DNA of 24,829 bases from a virus. Both the position numbers and the translations under genes were made by a program. The stretch lies in IMG/VR virus record IMGVR_UViG_3300032304_000636, positions 1 to 24,829 of that record. One strand, given 5' to 3'. This document shows positions 2,130 through 18,798 of this stretch, piece after piece (the first letter of the stretch is position 1; each line of letters opens with the position of its first letter). Under the pieces are notes generated by a model, which saw only the letters and a list, made by a program, of their open reading frames with translations, searched no databases and was not told the DNA's origin.

Positions 2130-2297
2130 ATGGGTTTCACTTTGTTTAATTTTCTATTTTTTATTTTTTTATCTATCGTTCTTAGTTTTCTAGTCGTTGT
2201 AATTATTGGTTTCATGGACAAAAAGCAAACAGCAAAAATCAATTCAAAAAAATATCATCCAGCAGGGAAGGGACAAAATGCCAACAGAACAGTTTGA
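2130..2297 (+). CDS. Possible small membrane protein (doubtful)
   Basis: An open frame of 55 residues runs from ATG 2130 to TGA 2297. It has one very hydrophobic segment (residues about 3-28, Phe/Leu/Ile/Val) and then a basic tail rich in Lys and Asn. No good ribosome binding site precedes it, it begins right after a terminator, and its last 20 bases overlap the start of the amidoligase gene in another frame. The T-rich DNA (2140-2200) would give a hydrophobic reading by chance in this frame. It may equally be the untranslated leader of the amidoligase transcript. Confidence 0.3.
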   Translation: MGFTLFNFLFFIFLSIVLSFLVVVIIGFMDKKQTAKINSKKYHPAGKGQNANRTV

Positions 2298-3285
2298 ATA
2301 CCATTGCGAAGACTGCGGTACTGGTCTAGAAGAAGACGAAATCAATATCAACGACTATTCGGATATGATTCGTTGCTACAGCTGTAACCGTGACTATCTC
2401 ATCGAGATGGAAGAAAACGAAGAAGAAGATGAAGATGAATCGTTAATCCATAACTACGGTCATCATCCTCAAGCAAACTTTCTTTCGGATGACGGTACTA
2501 GTTCTTACTATCAACCAATGCAATCAGAAGGCCGCCCAGTACTCATGATGGGTATCGAAGAAGAAGTAGAATCTCGTAAGGGTAATCTAACTTCGGGTGC
2601 GGAGTATGTGTTAAACACCATCAACCGTCGTGGGGAAGATGTTGTTTATCTTAAGGAAGACGGCTCCATTTACAATGGTTTCGAAATCGTGTCGCATCCA
2701 GCGACGTTGGGTTTCTTCATGAACCATTTCAAATGGGACGGCATCAAGGGCCTTTCAAAGCTCGGCTTCGAGTCTTGGAATGCTAAGTCATGTGGTCTAC
2801 ACATTCACATGACACGTAAAGCGTTTGCTAACGATAAACATCTGTTCAAGTTCCTCAAATTCATTTACGGTAACCCAACAGAACTTATTCAATTTGCTGG
2901 ACGCAATTCGACTTATGCCAAGTTCGATGTGGACACCTTCCTTAATTCATGGAACGATTACGGCGAGCGTGATTCTGTCCGTGGCTCATCATTCATGAAG
3001 ATGGCCAAGCATGAGACAATCAACGACGACCGTTATTGCGCCGTGAACGTACGCAATGTACAGACTATCGAGTTACGGTTCTTCCGTCCTTCGCTCAAGC
3101 CAGAGACAGTTCAAGCCGCTCTACAGTTCTGCGACGCTGCGTTTAATTACACAGAAGAAATAACTACACCCCAGGTTATGTCCGGCAACGCTCTTGCGTT
3201 CAAGTCGTTCAGAAGCTGGGTCAAAACTCAAACCGACCGCTATCAAATCCTCGACGACCGCATCACGCTTCGTCTCGGAAGTTAA
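2278..3285 (+). CDS. Amidoligase with N-terminal zinc ribbon
   Basis: This 335-residue protein is probably an ATP-dependent amidoligase of the glutamate-cysteine-ligase-like (COOH-NH2 ligase, 'putative amidoligase') superfamily. I chose ATG 2278, which has the ribosome binding site AAGGGACAAA, over the longer frame from 2206. Residues 8-37 form a zinc ribbon (Cys10, Cys13, Cys33, Cys36), and an acidic linker follows (44-56). The ligase core shows GIEEEVE (92-98), EIVSHPAT (136-143), CGLHIHMT (172-179) and ELRFFR (265-270), which match the family's metal and ATP-binding acidic, histidine and arginine positions. Family members form amide or peptide bonds, and some lie beside glutamine amidotransferases in phages; here the amidotransferase is the next gene, 9 bases on. 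The substrate is unknown: a cell-wall peptide, protein or nucleotide are all possible. Confidence 0.75.
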   Translation: MPTEQFEYHCEDCGTGLEEDEININDYSDMIRCYSCNRDYLIEMEENEEEDEDESLIHNYGHHPQANFLSDDGTSSYYQPMQSEGRPVLMMGIEEEVESRKGNLTSGAEYVLNTINRRGEDVVYLKEDGSIYNGFEIVSHPATLGFFMNHFKWDGIKGLSKLGFESWNAKSCGLHIHMTRKAFANDKHLFKFLKFIYGNPTELIQFAGRNSTYAKFDVDTFLNSWNDYGERDSVRGSSFMKMAKHETINDDRYCAVNVRNVQTIELRFFRPSLKPETVQAALQFCDAAFNYTEEITTPQVMSGNALAFKSFRSWVKTQTDRYQILDDRITLRLGS

Positions 3286-3294
3286 GGGAAAACT

Positions 3295-4245
3295 ATGTGC
3301 TTACTAACATTCATACCAAGCTATGTCATGCCTGACATGGAGAAGTTCCGGATCGCTGCTATCAGTAACCCTGATGGTTTCGGATTCGCAATCAACACAG
3401 GCAAAAAGATTGTTACAGGACATGGTATGGACTTCAATGAAGTTGCTAACAAGTTCGTAGAACTTCGCACAACTCATCAAGGTCCAGCAACATTCCACTT
3501 CCGTTGGGCTACTCACGGTTCTGAAACAGTTGACAACTGTCATCCATTCTTCTTGGGTGAAGACAAATCTTCTGTGGTCGCACATAACGGCATCTTGCCT
3601 GTTGCAATTCCAAAAGGTGACACACGTTCTGACACCAAAGTATTCGCAGAAGACATCATGCCAGCCGTTGGTGGCATTACATCACTAGATGACAATGACT
3701 ACTTCAACAAGTTATCAGAGTGGGCAAAAGGTTCAAAGCTTGTGTTCCTAACTACACATGACGATGCCAAGTACGACTTCTACATTCTCAATGAACAAGA
3801 TGGTCACTGGGCTGACGACATGTGGTGGTCTAACTCGTCTTACAAAACTGTTCCGTACCGTTCGTATGGCTACGGTTCAATGTGGAACGACTGGGACTAC
3901 GGATACGAGTCAACCTACAACAACATGACACGTTGGGATCAAAAAGTCTCAGAAGATTATGACGATGAGTACGATCTCAAAATTGATGCAGTGTTCGAGC
4001 AGTTCAATGTGTTCATGACCGACCTCGGTCCTAACACAGCGTTGCTTGAGTGCTACACATGTGCCCACACAGATGTCATTCCCAGCGAGAAAATCGTTAC
4101 GCAATGCCCTGCATGTAACGCTTGTCTGTACTGCGGAGCCCATCATGACTGCGGATGTTGGGACGATTTATACCAATCATTCGACGTAGAAGCTCACAAC
4201 AGTGAACTTCCATCTTTACAAACCACACACCCTAGTTACCACTGA
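3295..4245 (+). CDS. Class II glutamine amidotransferase with Cys-rich tail
   Basis: This 316-residue protein is a class II (Ntn-hydrolase) glutamine amidotransferase, which hydrolyses glutamine and supplies ammonia to a partner. Cys2 directly follows Met1 and would be the N-terminal nucleophile after methionine removal. The family signatures follow in order: NPDGFGFAI (25-33), HFRWATHG (68-75, Arg70), AHNGI (96-100, Asn98 and Gly99) and SDTKVFAEDI (112-121). A Tyr/Trp/Asp-rich region (172-230) leads to an unusual tail with cysteines at 253, 256, 271, 274, 277, 280, 286 and 288 and nearby histidines, enough for two zinc sites. The ribosome binding site is AAGGGAAAACT. The natural partner is the zinc-ribbon amidoligase upstream. 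No synthase domain is fused to it. Confidence 0.85.
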   Translation: MCLLTFIPSYVMPDMEKFRIAAISNPDGFGFAINTGKKIVTGHGMDFNEVANKFVELRTTHQGPATFHFRWATHGSETVDNCHPFFLGEDKSSVVAHNGILPVAIPKGDTRSDTKVFAEDIMPAVGGITSLDDNDYFNKLSEWAKGSKLVFLTTHDDAKYDFYILNEQDGHWADDMWWSNSSYKTVPYRSYGYGSMWNDWDYGYESTYNNMTRWDQKVSEDYDDEYDLKIDAVFEQFNVFMTDLGPNTALLECYTCAHTDVIPSEKIVTQCPACNACLYCGAHHDCGCWDDLYQSFDVEAHNSELPSLQTTHPSYH

Positions 4246-4256
4246 AAGGAACAGCA

Positions 4257-4757
4257 ATGCCAACCAGAACAACAGATATTCTACTAAGCGAAATGACAAT
4301 AAGTGATGAGATGAAAGAACTCATTACTTACTACATCGACAAACGTGTAGAAGAACGTACTGCAGAATTGTCCACACCAGACACCAATGCAGTAGCAGAA
4401 GTAATCAAGAATTCAACATCATTTGCAAGAAAAGTTCGTGTGCAAATAATGGACTCACTTGATTACAGTTTGATTGCAGAACAAGCAGGAAACCAAATCA
4501 ACTTAGATGAAATTGTAGAAAAACTTATGTCTGAAGATCCGTCGATACTCAGCTCACGTTTACATTCTGCAATCTTATCCAACAGTCGCTTCCGCTCTGT
4601 TGTCACTCATTGTGTACAAGAAGTTCTACGGAACTATTCAATCGCTGATTCAATCGAACAATTAGTCAGTGACAAAATGGTTAACACATCTAATGACTCT
4701 GCAGAAAAAGCAGTAACAATCATCATGCAACGTCTAACCCAGGGGGCTGATGTCTAA
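4257..4757 (+). CDS. Helical protein of unknown function
   Basis: This is a 166-residue, apparently all-helical protein that I do not recognise. ATG 4257 follows ACTGAAAGGAACAGCA, a strong ribosome binding site. The sequence is rich in Glu, Ser, Ile and Leu with heptad-like spacing, for example in residues 13-40 and 75-105. It has one cysteine (residue about 122) and no membrane span. Its last eight bases overlap the start of the WhiB gene (4750), so the two are translationally coupled. It could be a structural or regulatory partner of that gene, but this is only inferred from position. Confidence 0.75.
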   Translation: MPTRTTDILLSEMTISDEMKELITYYIDKRVEERTAELSTPDTNAVAEVIKNSTSFARKVRVQIMDSLDYSLIAEQAGNQINLDEIVEKLMSEDPSILSSRLHSAILSNSRFRSVVTHCVQEVLRNYSIADSIEQLVSDKMVNTSNDSAEKAVTIIMQRLTQGADV

Positions 4758-5025
4758 TACAACATTCAATGTTTACAAGCCTAACTTCATGTCTCAGGGT
4801 TCCTGCATCGGGTATCCAACCAGATGGTGGTTCCCTGAACATGGAGATGAAAAAGAACAGCAAGACCAATTAAAAGCAGCAAAAGAAATATGCAACAAAT
4901 GCCCTGTGCGTTTGCAATGCTACGAGTTCGGTTCACGAACTGGTTCAGCAGGCGTATGGGGTGGTGTAACACTAGACCGTGGTAAACCTACCCGGAGAGG
5001 AAAAAATCGTGCAAAAACTAGATGA
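4750..5025 (+). CDS. WhiB-like iron-sulphur regulator
   Basis: This 91-residue protein belongs to the WhiB-like (Wbl) family of [4Fe-4S] transcription regulators, which bind the primary sigma factor of actinobacteria. The four cluster cysteines are Cys19, Cys48, Cys51 and Cys57, spaced as C-x28-C-x2-C-x5-C, close to the family pattern. The GVWGG turn (68-72) and a basic C-terminus (GKPTRRGKNRAKTR, 78-91) follow, as in other Wbl proteins, where the basic tail contacts DNA. The start is ATG 4750 with AGGGGGCTG upstream. Mycobacteriophage TM4 carries such a protein and uses it to alter host gene expression and superinfection. It is strong evidence for an actinobacterial host. Confidence 0.93.
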   Translation: MSNTTFNVYKPNFMSQGSCIGYPTRWWFPEHGDEKEQQDQLKAAKEICNKCPVRLQCYEFGSRTGSAGVWGGVTLDRGKPTRRGKNRAKTR

Positions 5026-5739: not shown

Positions 5740-6165
5740 TTGATAGCCCAAATTTTGTTAGCCGCAGGTCTTGCAATAACACCAATCAATGACAAAGACA
5801 AATACGTCTACTCATCGCCCAATAACTATGCTGCGATAACTGTGGACGCAAATGCTAAGTGCCCACAATGGTGGCATCTAGCAAATTCAGTCGGTTGGTC
5901 AGCAAAGAATCTCAAAAAGCTGGACAAAATTATGTGGCGTGAATCCCGTTGCGACTTGTATCAGGTCAACCGTAAAGACCCTAATAGGGGCTCTTGGGGT
6001 CTGATGCAAGTGAACGGCTTCTGGATCGATTATCTCTCGTCTCGGGGCATCCTAGAGCGTCTGAAAGACCTTCAAGACCCATCAATCAACCTCAGGTCTG
6101 CCCTAGCCATCTACAACTATGCAGAAGCAAAACACGGCAACGGTTGGGGGCCTTGGGGCGAATAG
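5740..6165 (+). CDS. Lysozyme-like lytic transglycosylase, TTG start
   Basis: This 141-residue protein is a lysozyme-fold lytic transglycosylase of the SLT type, which cuts the glycan strands of peptidoglycan. Residues 1-16 are hydrophobic and resemble a short signal or anchor. The catalytic glutamate is most likely Glu68 in IMWRESRC (64-71). The GSWGLMQVN segment (about 82-90) matches the family GLMQ motif. The C-terminal AIYNYAEAKHGNGWGPW contains the usual tyrosine and tryptophan motif. TTG 5740 has AAGGAGAA upstream. Such enzymes act in lysis or in wall penetration by virions. Unusually, it is encoded on the early/replication strand and not beside the late M15 peptidase. Confidence 0.88.
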   Translation: MIAQILLAAGLAITPINDKDKYVYSSPNNYAAITVDANAKCPQWWHLANSVGWSAKNLKKLDKIMWRESRCDLYQVNRKDPNRGSWGLMQVNGFWIDYLSSRGILERLKDLQDPSINLRSALAIYNYAEAKHGNGWGPWGE

Positions 6166-11904: not shown

Positions 11905-14900
11905 CTAGTTATATTTTCGGATGGGGCTTCCCAAGTATCCAAGCCATGCGTTCAGCTGGCTTAGTCCGTCTCTACCTACAAGTCTTTCGGCTTGTCCGGC
12001 TGGCGGAGCCAAGCCAACTAATGCTGCCATTAGTCTTTCTTGGCCAGTGTCGAATTCTTTTCCAGTGAATGCTGACTTGCCAGCAATTTGTTCTGCTGGG
12101 ACTTTCAACAATGGGTTCATCTTGTTGAGCATCTTCATCGGGTTGGTCAAGTCGCTGAGTTCTTGTGGGATTCTTGTGAATCCAATGTCTGGCATTGCAT
12201 ACAGTCCTTCACCAAATGGCAGTCTGAATCCACCCATCTCACGTACGAATGGTGGTGCTGGGTCTTCGCCTTCAAAGTTGCGCTTGAACGAGTTGTAGAT
12301 CAAGTATGGCTTAGGGTTCAACCACATGTTTGTTATCTGTGTTGACATGTTGCGTGAGTAGAACAACCAGAACGGAATGATCTGTCGCATTACTTTGTCT
12401 ACTGATGACAGGTCTTCGTAGTCGAAAAAGAATCGTTTCACTCTTGCTTGTGCAAGGCCGGCATCGCCGCCTTTCATCGCTGAGTCAAATGCTAATACGA
12501 ATCGGCTGTAGTTGTCTGATGCTTGACCAATTGCTTGGTTCTTACGAATCAACCAGTTGTCGTAGATACGTGAGCCACCTGTGGCTTCCTTGAAGGTTTC
12601 GCTAAAGATACCTCCACCACCACCAAGTGCACCTCTGCGTGCAACGTTCAATGGTTTAACCATTTCAGGTTCAACGGTCTTCAAAAAGTCGTCCCAACTA
12701 AGTCCAGACTTCTGTGCTTTCAACCACTTGAAGTAATAGGGTGTTGCTTTAATCATGTTGTCAACATCTGCATCAGCAAGTATGAGTTGCATTGCGTTCG
12801 AGATTGCGTTGCGCACATGGAATCCTGGGCTGAGTGTTGCGTAAGCCTTAAAGAACTTTGTGTATGGTCCAATGTAGTAAGCAAGCTTGCGCACAAACTC
12901 CGGATCTTCGATCCGAGTTGCGGCATCCCATAGTTGTTTGAACTCTGGACTTGCCTGCAAGCCGGGGAAATACTTCTGGTCCAACTGTTGCCAGCCAGCC
13001 TTGAGGCTTCTGCCCACTTCGGCAAATGCTTCTACTGGTAATCCGTCCACAAGTTCGCCCGTTGATAACAGAATGCGGCCATCGTCCATAACTCGCCCGC
13101 CACCATCAATCATCTGCTGTATTCCAGCGACTGTGCGCTCTTCAACTTGTGCGTCGCTAAGACGCATGGCTGTCTGCCAGAACTGCACTTCTGCTTCGGC
13201 TTGGTTCAAGATGACTACATCAATTGCATCAATCTGATCTTTGGATCCAATGTGCTTAACAACACGCATTGCATCTTGCATGACTTTCTTGCCAACTTGA
13301 TGGCGCTCGTACAGATCGCCTTGCTTCATCGCATAATCAGCAGTTATCTGTGCACGGTCACTTGCGCCACGTACTGTGGCTCGCTGTGATGTGGTCGCAT
13401 CTTGCAACACGGACATAACATCCTTAATGTTCTGCTCCAAGACACCAAGTCTTGCCGGGTCAACTTCTGCCTGCACCGCAGCAAGTGAGTCGTATCGTGA
13501 ACGTAAATCATTTACAATCTGCAACGTGCGATCGGTCTGCTGACCGGATCGACTGCCAAGTCCAGCCACAACACGCAGTTCGTCCACAATCGTCTTGTCG
13601 GGTATGCCCTGAGTCTTAGTCGGCTTTGCACCTTTGCCAACAACCTTGTCCCTAGATCCGTAGAACAATGGGTCATCCCAGTCCGATGCAAGATCGCCTT
13701 CCTTGCCAAACACTGACCTTGTTGTGGACGCATCTGCAAGTTCATCAGGGCTTTTGGCCATGACGTTAAGTTCATCTTGCACAGCACGTTGTGTGGTTTC
13801 ACGCACATCTGCGCCACTGTCGACTTGCCGCCATGCGGCAGAGTCTTCAGGATTCATCATCAAATCCATTGCATCGGATTGTGCAGCTTTACGCTCATCA
13901 ATAATCTGAGCCAGTCTCTGCTGTGGTGTCAGCGTGTAATCGGTTTCCCTAAGTGGAGTTTCTTGTACAGATTGAATCAACTTGCGACGTTCACGTATGA
14001 GTTTATTCATCTGACCCTTGGTGTAGTCAGTCTCAATACCTTCAGACTTTAGTATCTCAAGCAACTTAAGTTCTTCTTCAAGTTGTGGTTGCGACTTTGT
14101 TTCAAGCGGTGTCTTTAGTACACGATCAAGTTTGTTTCTACCTGCTCGTGCATTCTCCAACAATGTCAATGAATTGCTTGACAAATCCTCTACGTTTGCA
14201 AGTCGTGGGTTAACAACCAAACTTGGTCCAAGATCGTTCAACAACTCTTCAGGGCCAGGGCGATAAACCTGTTGCAATGGTGCTTGTGGCACATTCTTGA
14301 CATCTAATGCCTGTTGCAAAGCAACGGCTAGTTCATCTGTGTCTTGTGGTGTCCAGTCAGAAAGTTGCTGTGCAATCTTCTCATTATTGCCTGCAACATT
14401 GTCTGCTGCCATACCGGCACGGTCCAGTAGGCGACGACGGTCGCCAGCCTTTGCTGTACGGGTTGTCTCAATTAGTCTTGCACGGACTGTGTTCACTTCA
14501 GTGAGTTTCTTGTAGCTCTCTGTGCTACGCCAGTTCTTCTCAATACGCTTGCGCCTTGCGCTTGCGACCACAGAGTCAACGGCATTATCGGAGTTCTGTC
14601 CAATAATAAACTCAACATACTTCTTGACTGCATACTCGTCAGAAATATTGTCAGCACCACGCTCAAGCAATTCACCGGGTGCAGTCATTTCCAATGTCTG
14701 CTTCATCTTGGCTTGCACTACTATTTGTCGCAACTTGCCAGTGACGGCATCATCCAAGTTGTCGCCATTTACAATGGCGTCCCATTCATCTGCAGTAAAT
14801 CTAATGCCACGGAAATCAATTCCGTCTTTCAGATCTGCCAATGCATGCACAATATTTGCACGGTTCTGTACAGATTTATGGATCGGATAAGCGTCAGAGT

Positions 14901-17900
14901 TGATCAACTCGTTATATATGCGCTTCAATGTGGCACGGTCACCAAGTGCCATTTCGGATACGCCAGGCTGTACTGCTCGTTCACCTGGTTCACGTGCAAC
15001 CAACAACTCTCGACGTGCAACAGTTCCCTGACCCGTCTCAATAAAGTCTTTTGGACGCATGCCAATGACTTCATCAATCTCATACAATCGAGATTCAGTA
15101 TTAGTAATAGTTCTCTGTATATCGTCACGCAAACTACGTGATGCATGCAAGGCCGAGTCAATAGAGTTGTCTGCATGACTGTCAAGCGAATCAAGCAAAA
15201 TGTTAATTACTGATTTATCAATGCCTTCAAAGTCAATGCCTGCATCCAAGAACTTGCGTCGGATTACTGCGTAACCCTCATCACCAGGTTTAATGTTTGC
15301 AACATCTGGCCCCAGACGCTTCATGATGTTAATCAATTTGCGGTTAGCCTTCAGCCAGTTATCAAATGTGGACGCATTCGTTAACTCAGATTCACGCAAC
15401 ACGCCACTAACTGTGGCAAGAAACTTGTCAAAGTCATTCACCCATGCTGATATGGTTTGCTGCGACTGAGCAGCAGACTTACGGAATCGTTGTGCAATCT
15501 TCTCACGTATCGCTGTAGCTGCCGCTTCATTCTGAAGCAACGCCCCATCTGCTGTTACAAGTTCTTTTCTGTTTGCGACCACAGTCTTACGATATTCGTC
15601 ACGCAACTGCAGATTAGAGCGTCGCCACTTAGTGTAAGCCTTGCGCTCAATCGGTGTCATTTGTTCAAGATCATCTTCAAACGTCTTGACAACAGTCTTA
15701 GGACCAATCTTATTTAGTTTCGACCATTTGTCCATCTCCCGAACAATGTCATCAACAACTTCACGATCGTACTGTGTACGTCGTTGCAGACTCAATGGAT
15801 GCGACTTGTCCTCAATGTTTCTAAAACCATACTTGGGATCACGCAACTGCTCTAGTCGTGCTGTGTCGCCAGACTTCAAAGCTTCATTAATTAATGGTTC
15901 GGCATTACGTTTAATAATTTCATCAATTACGTCATCACCAATATTTACACCATACGGTGCAAGTATGTCACGCATCTCAAGATACTGTTGCAAAGACAAC
16001 TCTTCGTTCAACAAATCTTGCAGAATATATCCATCTTTATTCAAACCAGATTTGATGGAATCAAACGCTTGTTGCCACATGCCAAATCGTGTCTGCTTGC
16101 CATTAATCTTCGTTAATCCACGTGCACGATCATTAATCAATTGATTTATGCCAAGTGCTTGTTCGTTAGAATCCATCAATACAAATATGTATCTTGCAAT
16201 ATCCACAAGTTCTTTTGACTCTGCATTTGTCAAAGGTTCTTTCTTGGCTGCCAGATAAGCCAAGTCTCGATAAACCATTTCGGGTTTCATGCCAGACAAA
16301 GATTTCTTCTGTGCCTCGTCCCATCCGTAACGACTACTGTTCTTGCCTAAAGCAGTTTCAATAAAGTTCTGAACCTTGGTCTTAATGCCAACCTGTTGCT
16401 TCTCCGTCTTTACGATGTCGTTCAGAACATCGAATACTTTTCGTCCGCCGATTTCATCGTGCGCACCAAGTGTTGGCAACACGTCGTGGACGTCATTCAT
16501 CTCGGAAAGGTCACGCTCAAATCGCTTAACACGTTCCATGTGTTCAGCCAGCTTCACACGAATCTGCTCAAGATTCTGTGACGTTATGTTCTTTGTCCCA
16601 TCTGCTGCCTCACGGGACACGTCGTCCATCATGTTCTTAATGTCTGCAAACTCTGCAGCCAAACGTTCACGCTGACCAGCAATCAACAAGTAATTCGATA
16701 CACCATCGACATCTGCTATCTGATCGTCAAACGCACGGAACAATCTAAGATACTGTTCATTCTTTGCACCAACATCGTCAATCACCTGTCGCAAAGCAAG
16801 ATGGAATTCATCCAAGTCAGCCTGGTTCATTGTTCCATTTGCCAACGCCGCTTTGGCGGCTTCAAGGCTTCCGTACATTTCACGAAGTACTACATCAACA
16901 GCACCAACACCATTCTCCTGTGTAGTCGACAAGTTGCGTAAAGCAACCGTCATGTCATTCAACGCCCTTGATGGTGCGTCAACAAGCTTCTCTTTTGCGT
17001 ACGCAGGGTCAATGCCAAGAGTCTTGTTCAAGAAGCTCAGAATCTCTGGATGCTCTGTAGCCAAGTTATCTAGCATGTCGTATGTTGACATCTGGTCGCT
17101 GTAACTACGAACATACTTTGCCATTACGTTTGCAATGTCTGTTTCAAACAAATCAAACGTGACACTTTCAGCACCGTTGATTCCATTACGTGCCAAAAAA
17201 TTCAAGCGCTCCGCAGACATGTCCTCTGGTCTAAGAGTGTGACCAAACCATGTGTCGCCAGCCTTAAGATCTCGTTCCTTAAACACACTTGCAGTACGTG
17301 TCTTGTCTACCGGCTTGGCACCCTTGATGACATCACCAGCTTCATCAATAATGTCATCAGCCATTCCACCGTACATGATGTTGTCGGCACCTTCGTTGCC
17401 AACCTTCAATCGCCAACGCAATGCGTCGTCGGTTTCCATACGTGGAAAGTAACCCTGTTCAATCTTGCCCGGCATACGTCCACCAACAGCCGCAGCCCTA
17501 TCCTGAATCAATTGGATAAATCGATTCAAGTGGCCACGCATTGTTGTGGCCGCAATAATGTCTTCAGGTGTCGCACCTGGAACGCTCGCTGGATCAGCGA
17601 CGTTATCAAGCAGTCTGTGCATTGGTATTGTTGTGCTTCGTGCAACATCAACATCGTTCTCAATCTGTGCTGCAGCTTCATCTGCGTAGTCAGCCAGACG
17701 CATGCGCTTCAAGTCATCTGCTTCCACAACGCTAAGAGCAAGGTTGACTTCATCAGGTGACATGCCACCACGTGCAAGTCTTACACGGAAGTCTCGAATT
17801 GCATTAGGACCAAACTGGTCAATGCGACCCACGCCCTTAGGCGTAAGAGCTTCTTGCATCTTGCCAAGTAGGTTACTGTTAACAGCACCAAGCCTTGCGC

Positions 17901-18798
17901 TAACCAATCCACTTTCAAGTGCTTTGCCAATCGCCCCAGATCCTGGAACTTTTACACGACTACCAAAGTAGTAAACACCAGGACCTTTGATGCCAATATC
18001 ATCTGCAAGCCATGGTGCTTGCCTGAGTGCTTTCTTCCCTTCGGATGCAATCTCTCCAGCAATACGGTTAATCTCTTGTGGGCTAATTTGACGTGAACCA
18101 CTTTCAACCATTTGGTTCATACGCTTGCGAGAGAACTCTGCAAGTTTCTGTCTACCTTCACGACCAACTACAGTTTTGCCAATCACACTACGTGTAGCAA
18201 CTTCAACCGATCCATCTGATAGTTGTTTTTTAACTGCAAGTTTTGCAAGATCGGCTGGAGCCATCTTTGCTAATTCTTTCGCACTAATCTTTACAACAGA
18301 TTTAGCTGCAACAGTTCCACCCAACGTTGCGTATGTCAATGGGTCAAACAGCACGTCACCTAGAAATCCAGTGACTCGACCCATCCAACCCTTCATCGGG
18401 AACGCAGTTCCAAATCCGTATGAAGAATCTTTCGTTTGGTTCCAGAAGTCACCAAACGAACCCTTACTGTTTGGGTCGCTATCTAGTACGTCCACAAGTT
18501 CACGTAAACCAGAAATAACAGCACGACGTGGTGTGTCCAATGCTGTTAGTGGAACCAACAAATGTTTGGCTAGTCCACCAATCTCACCCTTAAAATCTAT
18601 GTCAGTAGATTTCTCATAACCTAGTCCAGTCGGAGTGGTTCCAGACTTCTGTCGTTTTGCTGCAGCATCCAAGGATGCCAACAACCCATCAGTCGGTTTT
18701 ACCGAACTGATTGGCGGCAATTTACTTGTTGTCTTTTTTGGTTTAGATAAACCAGTAAGTGCATCAATGATTGCTTTGTCTTCCTGGTAGTCAGACAT
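11905..18798 (-). CDS. Giant internal virion (ejection) protein, T7 gp16 position
   Basis: This 2297-residue protein covers about 28% of the window. Gene order after the adaptor and nozzle places it at the site of T7 gp16, the large ejection protein that helps carry DNA across the cell envelope. Residues 138-170 are a Gly-rich hydrophobic stretch (GRVTGFLGDVLFDPLTYATLGG). A long helical, charged middle with coiled-coil character follows. The C-terminal domain (about 1980-2297) contains LSPGFHVRN, a GALGGGGG run and IIPFWLFYSRN, similar from memory to phage internal and large polyvalent proteins. It has no cysteine. No transglycosylase or peptidase motif was seen, although the phage encodes those separately. 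The start is ATG 18798, with weak TAAGGA overlapping it. Confidence 0.72.
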   Translation of the reverse strand: MSDYQEDKAIIDALTGLSKPKKTTSKLPPISSVKPTDGLLASLDAAAKRQKSGTTPTGLGYEKSTDIDFKGEIGGLAKHLLVPLTALDTPRRAVISGLRELVDVLDSDPNSKGSFGDFWNQTKDSSYGFGTAFPMKGWMGRVTGFLGDVLFDPLTYATLGGTVAAKSVVKISAKELAKMAPADLAKLAVKKQLSDGSVEVATRSVIGKTVVGREGRQKLAEFSRKRMNQMVESGSRQISPQEINRIAGEIASEGKKALRQAPWLADDIGIKGPGVYYFGSRVKVPGSGAIGKALESGLVSARLGAVNSNLLGKMQEALTPKGVGRIDQFGPNAIRDFRVRLARGGMSPDEVNLALSVVEADDLKRMRLADYADEAAAQIENDVDVARSTTIPMHRLLDNVADPASVPGATPEDIIAATTMRGHLNRFIQLIQDRAAAVGGRMPGKIEQGYFPRMETDDALRWRLKVGNEGADNIMYGGMADDIIDEAGDVIKGAKPVDKTRTASVFKERDLKAGDTWFGHTLRPEDMSAERLNFLARNGINGAESVTFDLFETDIANVMAKYVRSYSDQMSTYDMLDNLATEHPEILSFLNKTLGIDPAYAKEKLVDAPSRALNDMTVALRNLSTTQENGVGAVDVVLREMYGSLEAAKAALANGTMNQADLDEFHLALRQVIDDVGAKNEQYLRLFRAFDDQIADVDGVSNYLLIAGQRERLAAEFADIKNMMDDVSREAADGTKNITSQNLEQIRVKLAEHMERVKRFERDLSEMNDVHDVLPTLGAHDEIGGRKVFDVLNDIVKTEKQQVGIKTKVQNFIETALGKNSSRYGWDEAQKKSLSGMKPEMVYRDLAYLAAKKEPLTNAESKELVDIARYIFVLMDSNEQALGINQLINDRARGLTKINGKQTRFGMWQQAFDSIKSGLNKDGYILQDLLNEELSLQQYLEMRDILAPYGVNIGDDVIDEIIKRNAEPLINEALKSGDTARLEQLRDPKYGFRNIEDKSHPLSLQRRTQYDREVVDDIVREMDKWSKLNKIGPKTVVKTFEDDLEQMTPIERKAYTKWRRSNLQLRDEYRKTVVANRKELVTADGALLQNEAAATAIREKIAQRFRKSAAQSQQTISAWVNDFDKFLATVSGVLRESELTNASTFDNWLKANRKLINIMKRLGPDVANIKPGDEGYAVIRRKFLDAGIDFEGIDKSVINILLDSLDSHADNSIDSALHASRSLRDDIQRTITNTESRLYEIDEVIGMRPKDFIETGQGTVARRELLVAREPGERAVQPGVSEMALGDRATLKRIYNELINSDAYPIHKSVQNRANIVHALADLKDGIDFRGIRFTADEWDAIVNGDNLDDAVTGKLRQIVVQAKMKQTLEMTAPGELLERGADNISDEYAVKKYVEFIIGQNSDNAVDSVVASARRKRIEKNWRSTESYKKLTEVNTVRARLIETTRTAKAGDRRRLLDRAGMAADNVAGNNEKIAQQLSDWTPQDTDELAVALQQALDVKNVPQAPLQQVYRPGPEELLNDLGPSLVVNPRLANVEDLSSNSLTLLENARAGRNKLDRVLKTPLETKSQPQLEEELKLLEILKSEGIETDYTKGQMNKLIRERRKLIQSVQETPLRETDYTLTPQQRLAQIIDERKAAQSDAMDLMMNPEDSAAWRQVDSGADVRETTQRAVQDELNVMAKSPDELADASTTRSVFGKEGDLASDWDDPLFYGSRDKVVGKGAKPTKTQGIPDKTIVDELRVVAGLGSRSGQQTDRTLQIVNDLRSRYDSLAAVQAEVDPARLGVLEQNIKDVMSVLQDATTSQRATVRGASDRAQITADYAMKQGDLYERHQVGKKVMQDAMRVVKHIGSKDQIDAIDVVILNQAEAEVQFWQTAMRLSDAQVEERTVAGIQQMIDGGGRVMDDGRILLSTGELVDGLPVEAFAEVGRSLKAGWQQLDQKYFPGLQASPEFKQLWDAATRIEDPEFVRKLAYYIGPYTKFFKAYATLSPGFHVRNAISNAMQLILADADVDNMIKATPYYFKWLKAQKSGLSWDDFLKTVEPEMVKPLNVARRGALGGGGGIFSETFKEATGGSRIYDNWLIRKNQAIGQASDNYSRFVLAFDSAMKGGDAGLAQARVKRFFFDYEDLSSVDKVMRQIIPFWLFYSRNMSTQITNMWLNPKPYLIYNSFKRNFEGEDPAPPFVREMGGFRLPFGEGLYAMPDIGFTRIPQELSDLTNPMKMLNKMNPLLKVPAEQIAGKSAFTGKEFDTGQERLMAALVGLAPPAGQAERLVGRDGLSQLNAWLGYLGSPIRKYN

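Follow-up and report, generated by a model that had tools for sequence, protein, structure and literature searches.

Amidoligase pairs in phages and the window locus

Adjacent genes for an amidoligase and a glutamine amidotransferase (GATase) have reportedly been noticed in phages since 2009. Mycobacterium phage Marvin (Marvinvirus, 19 records) is annotated with a pair, gp105 and gp106, homologous to the one described here. A report on OM43 phages (PMC10580990) gives an amidoligase-GATase pair there, citing Iyer et al. 2009, and attributes phage amidoligase modules to that study. Amidoligase/GATase modules are also described in LUZ24- and RIO-1-like phages (PMC3890496, PMC5498523). PMC3890496, PMC5498523 and PMC11945000 credit the 'peptidoglycan modification' module of LUZ24, PaP3, RIO-1 and phiEco32, which places an amidoligase and a GATase in the early region, to Iyer 2009 and Hardies 2013. 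The LUZ24 and phiEco32 modules are described as larger, with an ATP-grasp enzyme, a gamma-glutamylcyclotransferase and another COOH-NH2 ligase besides the first.

The window analyzed here is a 24,829-base stretch (positions 1 to 24,829 of virus record IMGVR_UViG_3300032304_000636), an incomplete genome that gene calls and profile matches assign to a tailed phage. It carries an amidoligase gene (AL) followed by a class II GATase gene (GAT) at the head of a rightward run:

2063 to 2102, + strand: terminator-like hairpin, 18 pairs then TTTTT, from a pattern scan; just 5' of the pair
2278 to 3285, + strand: AL, 335 aa, amidoligase of the COOH-NH2 ligase / GS-GCS fold by profiles, conservation and fold; ATG at 2278, stop at 3285
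3295 to 4245, + strand: GAT, 316 aa, class II (Ntn) glutamine amidotransferase by profiles, conservation and fold; ATG at 3295, stop at 4245
4257 to 4757, + strand: 166-aa protein, function unassigned, next gene of the run; homologue in 32 of 107 loci
4750 to 5025, + strand: WhiB-like transcription factor (PF02467, E 7.7e-12), overlapping the gene before it; homologue in 58 loci
5740 to 6165, + strand: SLT lytic-transglycosylase-like protein with a hydrophobic N-terminus; PF18896/PF01464 just below cut-off

The two reading frames lie 9 bases apart on the same strand, exactly where the first-pass annotation had placed them, and are homologous to Marvin gp105 and gp106, which makes them a pair of the Marvin/OM43 type. 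Gene order is the same as in Marvin, AL is about 32–36% and GAT about 38–39% identical (tblastn), and both the N-terminal cysteines of AL and the cysteine tail of GAT are present there. Marvin differs in a C-terminal extension of ~150 residues in gp105, in a spacing of 79 bases rather than 9, and in lacking the window's downstream neighbours. The phages MEP401 and MEP402 of OM43 (Methylophilales) also have an adjacent amidoligase and class II GATase upstream of replication genes, but identity is 27–33%, the amidoligase has a long N-terminal extension, the GATase has no eight-cysteine tail, and the host is proteobacterial. The first-pass annotation had singled out the pair as the best candidate for an undescribed system; since homologous pairs are already annotated or reported in Marvin, OM43 and LUZ24-/RIO-1-like phages, it is not one. 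The additional enzymes of the phiEco32 and LUZ24 modules were recognized neither among the scanned genes of this incomplete genome nor among the recurrent neighbours of related loci.

Besides the pair, the genes transcribed rightward encode the WhiB factor, the SLT-like protein, a PD-(D/E)XK exonuclease, a DnaB-like helicase, an AEP primase, RusA and a sigma-70 region 4 protein, and the run headed by the pair leads into the replication genes. One protein of a related phage (L168, 11886–12821, + strand) combines a sigma-70 region 4 domain with a 'nucleotide modification associated' domain, DUF1599. Virion genes are transcribed leftward and include an SU10-type adaptor and a 2297-aa protein; the latter (11905–18798, − strand) has no Pfam or PHROG match. 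The hairpin just upstream, together with the small gaps and overlaps from AL to the SLT gene, suggests that the pair probably heads one new transcription unit. The pattern scan found 4 hairpin-T sites against 3.2 expected in shuffles, a count close to expectation, so that this hairpin is credible only because of its long stem. No sigma-70 promoter was seen 5' of the pair in a scan that is uninformative for this host, tRNA and Rfam searches of the window gave no matches, and PADLOC matched neither AL nor GAT.

Fold and active sites of the two proteins

Conserved features of the two proteins are as follows:

2305 to 2385, + strand: AL N-terminal zinc-ribbon/LIM-like module, C10xxC13 and C33xxC36; weak Zn_ribbon_8 match
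2557 to 2565, + strand: AL E94-x-E96, putative metal ligands on the first strand of the GS-type barrel; 99% conserved
2800 to 2808, + strand: AL H175-x-H177 of the CGLHIH motif; 100% conserved
3070 to 3078, + strand: AL E265-x-R267, putative metal ligand and phosphate-binding arginine; 100% conserved
3298 to 3300, + strand: GAT Cys2, which should become the N-terminal nucleophile once Met1 is removed; 100% conserved in the 107 pairs
3502 to 3519, + strand: GAT R70-WATH-G75, glutamine-binding segment, aligned with RWATHG of GlmS
3583 to 3591, + strand: GAT H97-N98-G99, oxyanion-hole segment, aligned with HNG of GlmS
3631 to 3633, + strand: GAT D113 in RSDTK; 97% conserved, outside the GlmS sequence alignment
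4051 to 4158, + strand: GAT eight-cysteine tail (C253, 256, 271, 274, 277, 280, 286, 288), putative two-metal module

By itself, the window AL matches PF12224 (Amidoligase_2) below threshold (E 0.021; score 15.1 against a curated cut-off of 22). The same family is matched at E <= 0.01 by 37 of 38 aligned relatives, with a best value of 6.7e-13, and the window protein matches three PHROGs (best E 6.9e-31), among them phrog_2443, which is named amidoligase. Comparison with all PDB sequences returned no credible relative of AL, and matches came from the fold search alone. The AlphaFold model (mean pLDDT 89, pTM 0.80) resembles YbdK (Z 11.6), glutamine synthetases (~10.5), plant glutamate-cysteine ligase (10.4) and Dop (9.7) over ~180–216 residues at rmsd 3.3–4.3, and Foldseek retrieved the same families. 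By this test on a predicted structure, AL is an amidoligase of the GS/GCS fold, the class first proposed for it. E94, E96, K126, D128, E136, H175, H177, R209, R252, N257, E265 and R267 are 99–100% conserved across the 107 distinct pairs, and they include the putative metal and phosphate residues; these roles are ones we assume by analogy with GS and GCL. The cysteine module predicted at the N-terminus holds up as well, C10, C13, C33 and C36 being 91–97% conserved in the same set, and several CxxC units take the place of a single Cys4 module in some relatives (L190, L192, L193, L201).

GAT likewise scores below threshold against PF13230 (E 8e-4), a family matched by all 39 of 39 relatives. Its model matches the GlmS glutaminase (Z 14.2), EgtC (13.3) and PurF (12.8) at rmsd 3.4–3.8 over 163–174 residues, with differences below 1 Z treated as ties. 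In sequence, its closest relatives of solved structure are GlmS and PurF; EgtC is absent from the sequence matches at E <= 1 and appears as a fold match only. Cys2, R70, T73, H74, N98, G99 and D113 are 97–100% conserved in the 107 distinct pairs, the glutamine-binding signature (RxxTHG, HNG, Asp) reaching 97–98%, and D113 is a candidate that we take to be the equivalent of the GlmS aspartate binding the amino group of glutamine. On its aligned motifs and modelled fold, GAT is a class II Ntn amidotransferase with a GlmS-like glutaminase signature, and the early reading of a class II enzyme with Cys2 in place stands. The eight tail cysteines, also noted at first pass, are 92–95% conserved in 107 pairs, the remainder being almost only gaps; zinc or an iron-sulphur cluster are the putative metal candidates.

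As EgtC lies within 1 Z of GlmS, the fold cannot separate a glutaminase from a gamma-glutamyl hydrolase, and hydrolysis of this kind is equally compatible with it. AL could then join glutamate or a peptide carboxylate to an amine, in the manner of GCL or EgtA, and GAT could later cut the gamma-glutamyl bond as EgtC does, so that the pair would transiently protect or tag a compound. EgtA and EgtC similarly combine an enzyme of the glutamate-cysteine ligase fold with a class II Ntn enzyme, although there the Ntn enzyme removes gamma-glutamate and has no sequence match here; ergothioneine-type genes were seen neither in those window genes that were scanned nor in the recurrent neighbours. YbdK and glutamate-cysteine ligase, both fold relatives of AL, use amines other than ammonia. 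A gamma-glutamylcyclotransferase lies beside the amidoligase and GATase in related phage modules (PMC3890496, PMC5498523, PMC5513430), and the GATase is counted among degradation genes in PMC5498523. Weighed against the closer sequence relationship to GlmS and PurF, the fact that no cyclotransferase was recognized among the recurrent neighbours scanned, and a tight co-inheritance of AL and GAT that fits a joint enzyme at least equally well, such making and breaking of a gamma-glutamyl bond, the main alternative to a joint enzyme, seems unlikely, if arguable.

Pairing in phages and bacteria

Viral loci were picked by AL alone or by GAT alone. GAT is adjacent in 78 of 79 loci selected by AL, and AL in 73 of 74 selected by GAT. 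The two loci without a partner are both cut by a contig end, so that adjacency is 78/78 and 73/73 where the flanks are readable; conserved co-occurrence in related phages, on which the first-pass annotation had staked its proposal, was thus found. AL precedes GAT on the same strand in every case, at a spacing of −107 to +82 bases, and removal of duplicates leaves 107 distinct pairs. The loci come from the 80 best matches among at least 571 AL and at least 380 GAT viral relatives, a choice that favours close relatives, and linkage further out is therefore less well measured. Two distant cases stand apart. Clostridioides phage AR1086-1 has an AL (L018, 4674–5786) with no recognizable GAT in the 10.6 kb examined, and Bifidobacterium phage BP742P1 has a short class II GAT-like protein (L019, 5001–5501) with no ligase in the 7.2 kb examined; the pair is thus non-obligatory in distant relatives. 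No AL-GAT fusion, which would have spoken for a joint enzyme, occurs among 298 AL-bearing and 295 GAT-bearing ORFs; this counts against that reading.

Across 44 phages, the distance matrices of AL and GAT correlate with r 0.93, compared with 0.73–0.85 for their correlations with the exonuclease and helicase, which indicates that the two share a history beyond the phage backbone. The partial r, beyond divergence of the replication genes, is 0.80. Pairwise distances are interdependent, and significance is not claimed for these correlations. Relative to the nearest relative, dN is 0.25 and dS about 3.5 for AL, and dN is 0.17 and dS 2.3 for GAT, with dS near saturation in both; closer pairs give dN/dS of about 0.04–0.2. 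Both genes are under purifying selection. The idea that they are chance neighbours or decaying genes without joint function could draw on the window proteins' own Pfam scores, which fall under the curated cut-offs, but near-universal adjacency, co-divergence, strong purifying selection and intact catalytic residues make it scarcely credible.

The pair is also found in bacteria. In a sample of 80 bacterial loci, with GAT located by a clean profile, 74 have GAT at most 3 kb downstream of AL, and in two others (L198, L203) GAT overlaps AL through extended gene calls, giving 76/80 with the ligase then the GATase on one strand, as in the window. Of the remaining four, three are from Pseudonocardia and the last is a short contig. 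Some real bacterial GATs have GTG starts or variant spacing and are rejected by a strict motif filter. Nocardia and others differ from the window in carrying tandem copies: L270 (5259–12488, − strand) and L271 (5097–9383, − strand) have ligase copies with GATases in the order AL, AL-GAT, AL-GAT. A DUF4192 protein is encoded nearby in L270, as it is in locus L272 of Actinoplanes. The pair is also present on a contig titled Candidatus Lokiarchaeota (L192, 8001–9728) and binned as a Lokiarchaeota genome, for which a viral origin or faulty binning may be responsible. In Pseudonocardia, amidoligase domains sit inside very long stop-free frames, free of N runs and reaching at least 5,559 codons in L191 (3–16681, + strand), at least 3,679 in L204 (3–11042, + strand) and at least 5,622 in L205 (3–16870, + strand) within the loci examined. 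L191 and L204 have two ligase-like domains each, L191 also has a trypsin-like domain, and the TRM90224 genome has a stop-free frame of 11,721 codons. Giant proteins could account for these frames, and so could the GC content of 72–75%.

The two cysteine modules are distributed differently. The eight-cysteine GAT tail is common to Marvin gp106 and the actinobacterial copies, and is present in few clostridial GATs. Among the mostly clostridial loci, 57 of 59 have the ligase module, but 50 of the 58 whose GAT is full-length lack the GAT tail; these counts come from a GAT profile re-trained on its own hits, with some high-GC false frames, the effect of which on the phage and clostridial groups should be small. 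Without strict co-occurrence, the Cys4 and Cys8 modules are unlikely simply to hold AL and GAT together, which weakens the earlier suggestion that zinc modules join the two proteins. Delivery to nucleic acid, the other role suggested for them at first pass, is neither favoured nor contradicted.

The modules might instead target the pair to a host or phage macromolecule outside the wall, either protein carboxylates or a modified base. The Cys4 module is present in most AL members and expanded in the four relatives with several CxxC units, the Cys8 tail is conserved in phage and actinobacterial GATs, Dop, which has the AL fold, acts on protein-linked Pup, and the pair leads into a replication run. 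On the other hand, such modules often mediate protein contacts only, and no methyltransferase, hydroxymethylase or glycosyltransferase was found among the recurrent neighbours. A role confined to phage DNA is also at odds with pairs on bacterial chromosomes and on clostridial mobile elements without phage replication genes. Overall, a non-wall target appears fairly improbable. The more specific form, in which protein or nucleic acid is modified, the ligase Cys4 module picks the target and the GAT Cys8 tail acts as an additional adaptor specific to phages of actinobacteria and to their hosts, is more doubtful still.

Proposed function

Beyond the folds, conserved catalytic residues, near-obligate adjacency and co-inheritance demonstrated here, a two-subunit glutamine-dependent amidating enzyme, its target left open, is the simplest reading of the pair, one on which the balance is about even. 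With its intact active site, GAT would hydrolyze glutamine at Cys2 and release ammonia. AL, to judge from its GS-type fold and intact metal and phosphate residues, would activate a carboxylate as an acyl phosphate with ATP and Mg2+, and attack by the ammonia would yield an amide. The two proteins would presumably form a complex in which ammonia passes from GAT to AL, and early expression may be expected from the position of the pair at the head of a run into replication genes.

AsnB-type GATases are class II, GatD is a GATase of class I type, and the synthetase domains of AsnB/LtsA and MurT-GatD are unrelated to AL. Glutamine-dependent amidation of peptidoglycan carboxylates by these enzymes is the functional model, and LtsA/AsnB, which amidate mDAP, set an established precedent (PMC6736417). 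In phages, outside support comes from directed evolution of P. aeruginosa phage FJK.R9, which gave missense changes in both the amidoligase gene gp22 and the next gene, gp23, annotated as a GlmS-like aminotransferase (PMC11450229). The literature searched contained no biochemical test of a phage amidoligase-GATase pair.

A cell-envelope carboxylate, for example a residue of the peptidoglycan stem or of lipid II, is tentatively the most likely acceptor, and this is the weakest step of the proposal, one that may well prove wrong. It is suggested by earlier proposals for relatives, in which wall modification and superinfection exclusion are put forward by authors cited in PMC10580990 and PMC5498523, and by the transglycosylase-like gene in the same run. 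The SLT-like gene provides a contextual link to the cell wall, and an SLT-type gene occurs in 62 of the 78 loci whose sequence continues for 3.5 kb or more beyond the pair; it could, however, simply be a lysin. Amidation of the envelope might change the wall during infection, for example by excluding other phages or tuning wall hydrolases.

Host cells already possess GS, GOGAT and GlmS, and a dedicated substrate is suggested by the fixed pairing and by the cysteine modules that the enzymes have gained. Both points speak against an auxiliary metabolic role in which the pair merely shuttles nitrogen among glutamine, glutamate and some small acceptor in support of phage synthesis. Such a role has been proposed for a planctomycete phage with amidoligase, GATase, cyclotransferase and glutathione synthase genes, in a study that reports growth correlations and no enzyme assay (PMC10945688), and for the present pair it is very doubtful.

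The window clade has the pair in a compact form of two genes that lacks the additional enzymes found in the LUZ24/phiEco32 modules. No description of the conserved Cys8 tail of the actinobacterial-type GAT or of the quantified near-obligate pairing was found in the literature searched, and these features are perhaps new. Deletion and mass-spectrometry experiments are practicable in cultured relatives, the Marvin-type phages of Mycobacterium smegmatis. Viral contigs with relatives of the pair number at least several hundred here, as do bacterial ones, and the substrate, once known, would explain a widespread trait of phages and mobile elements.
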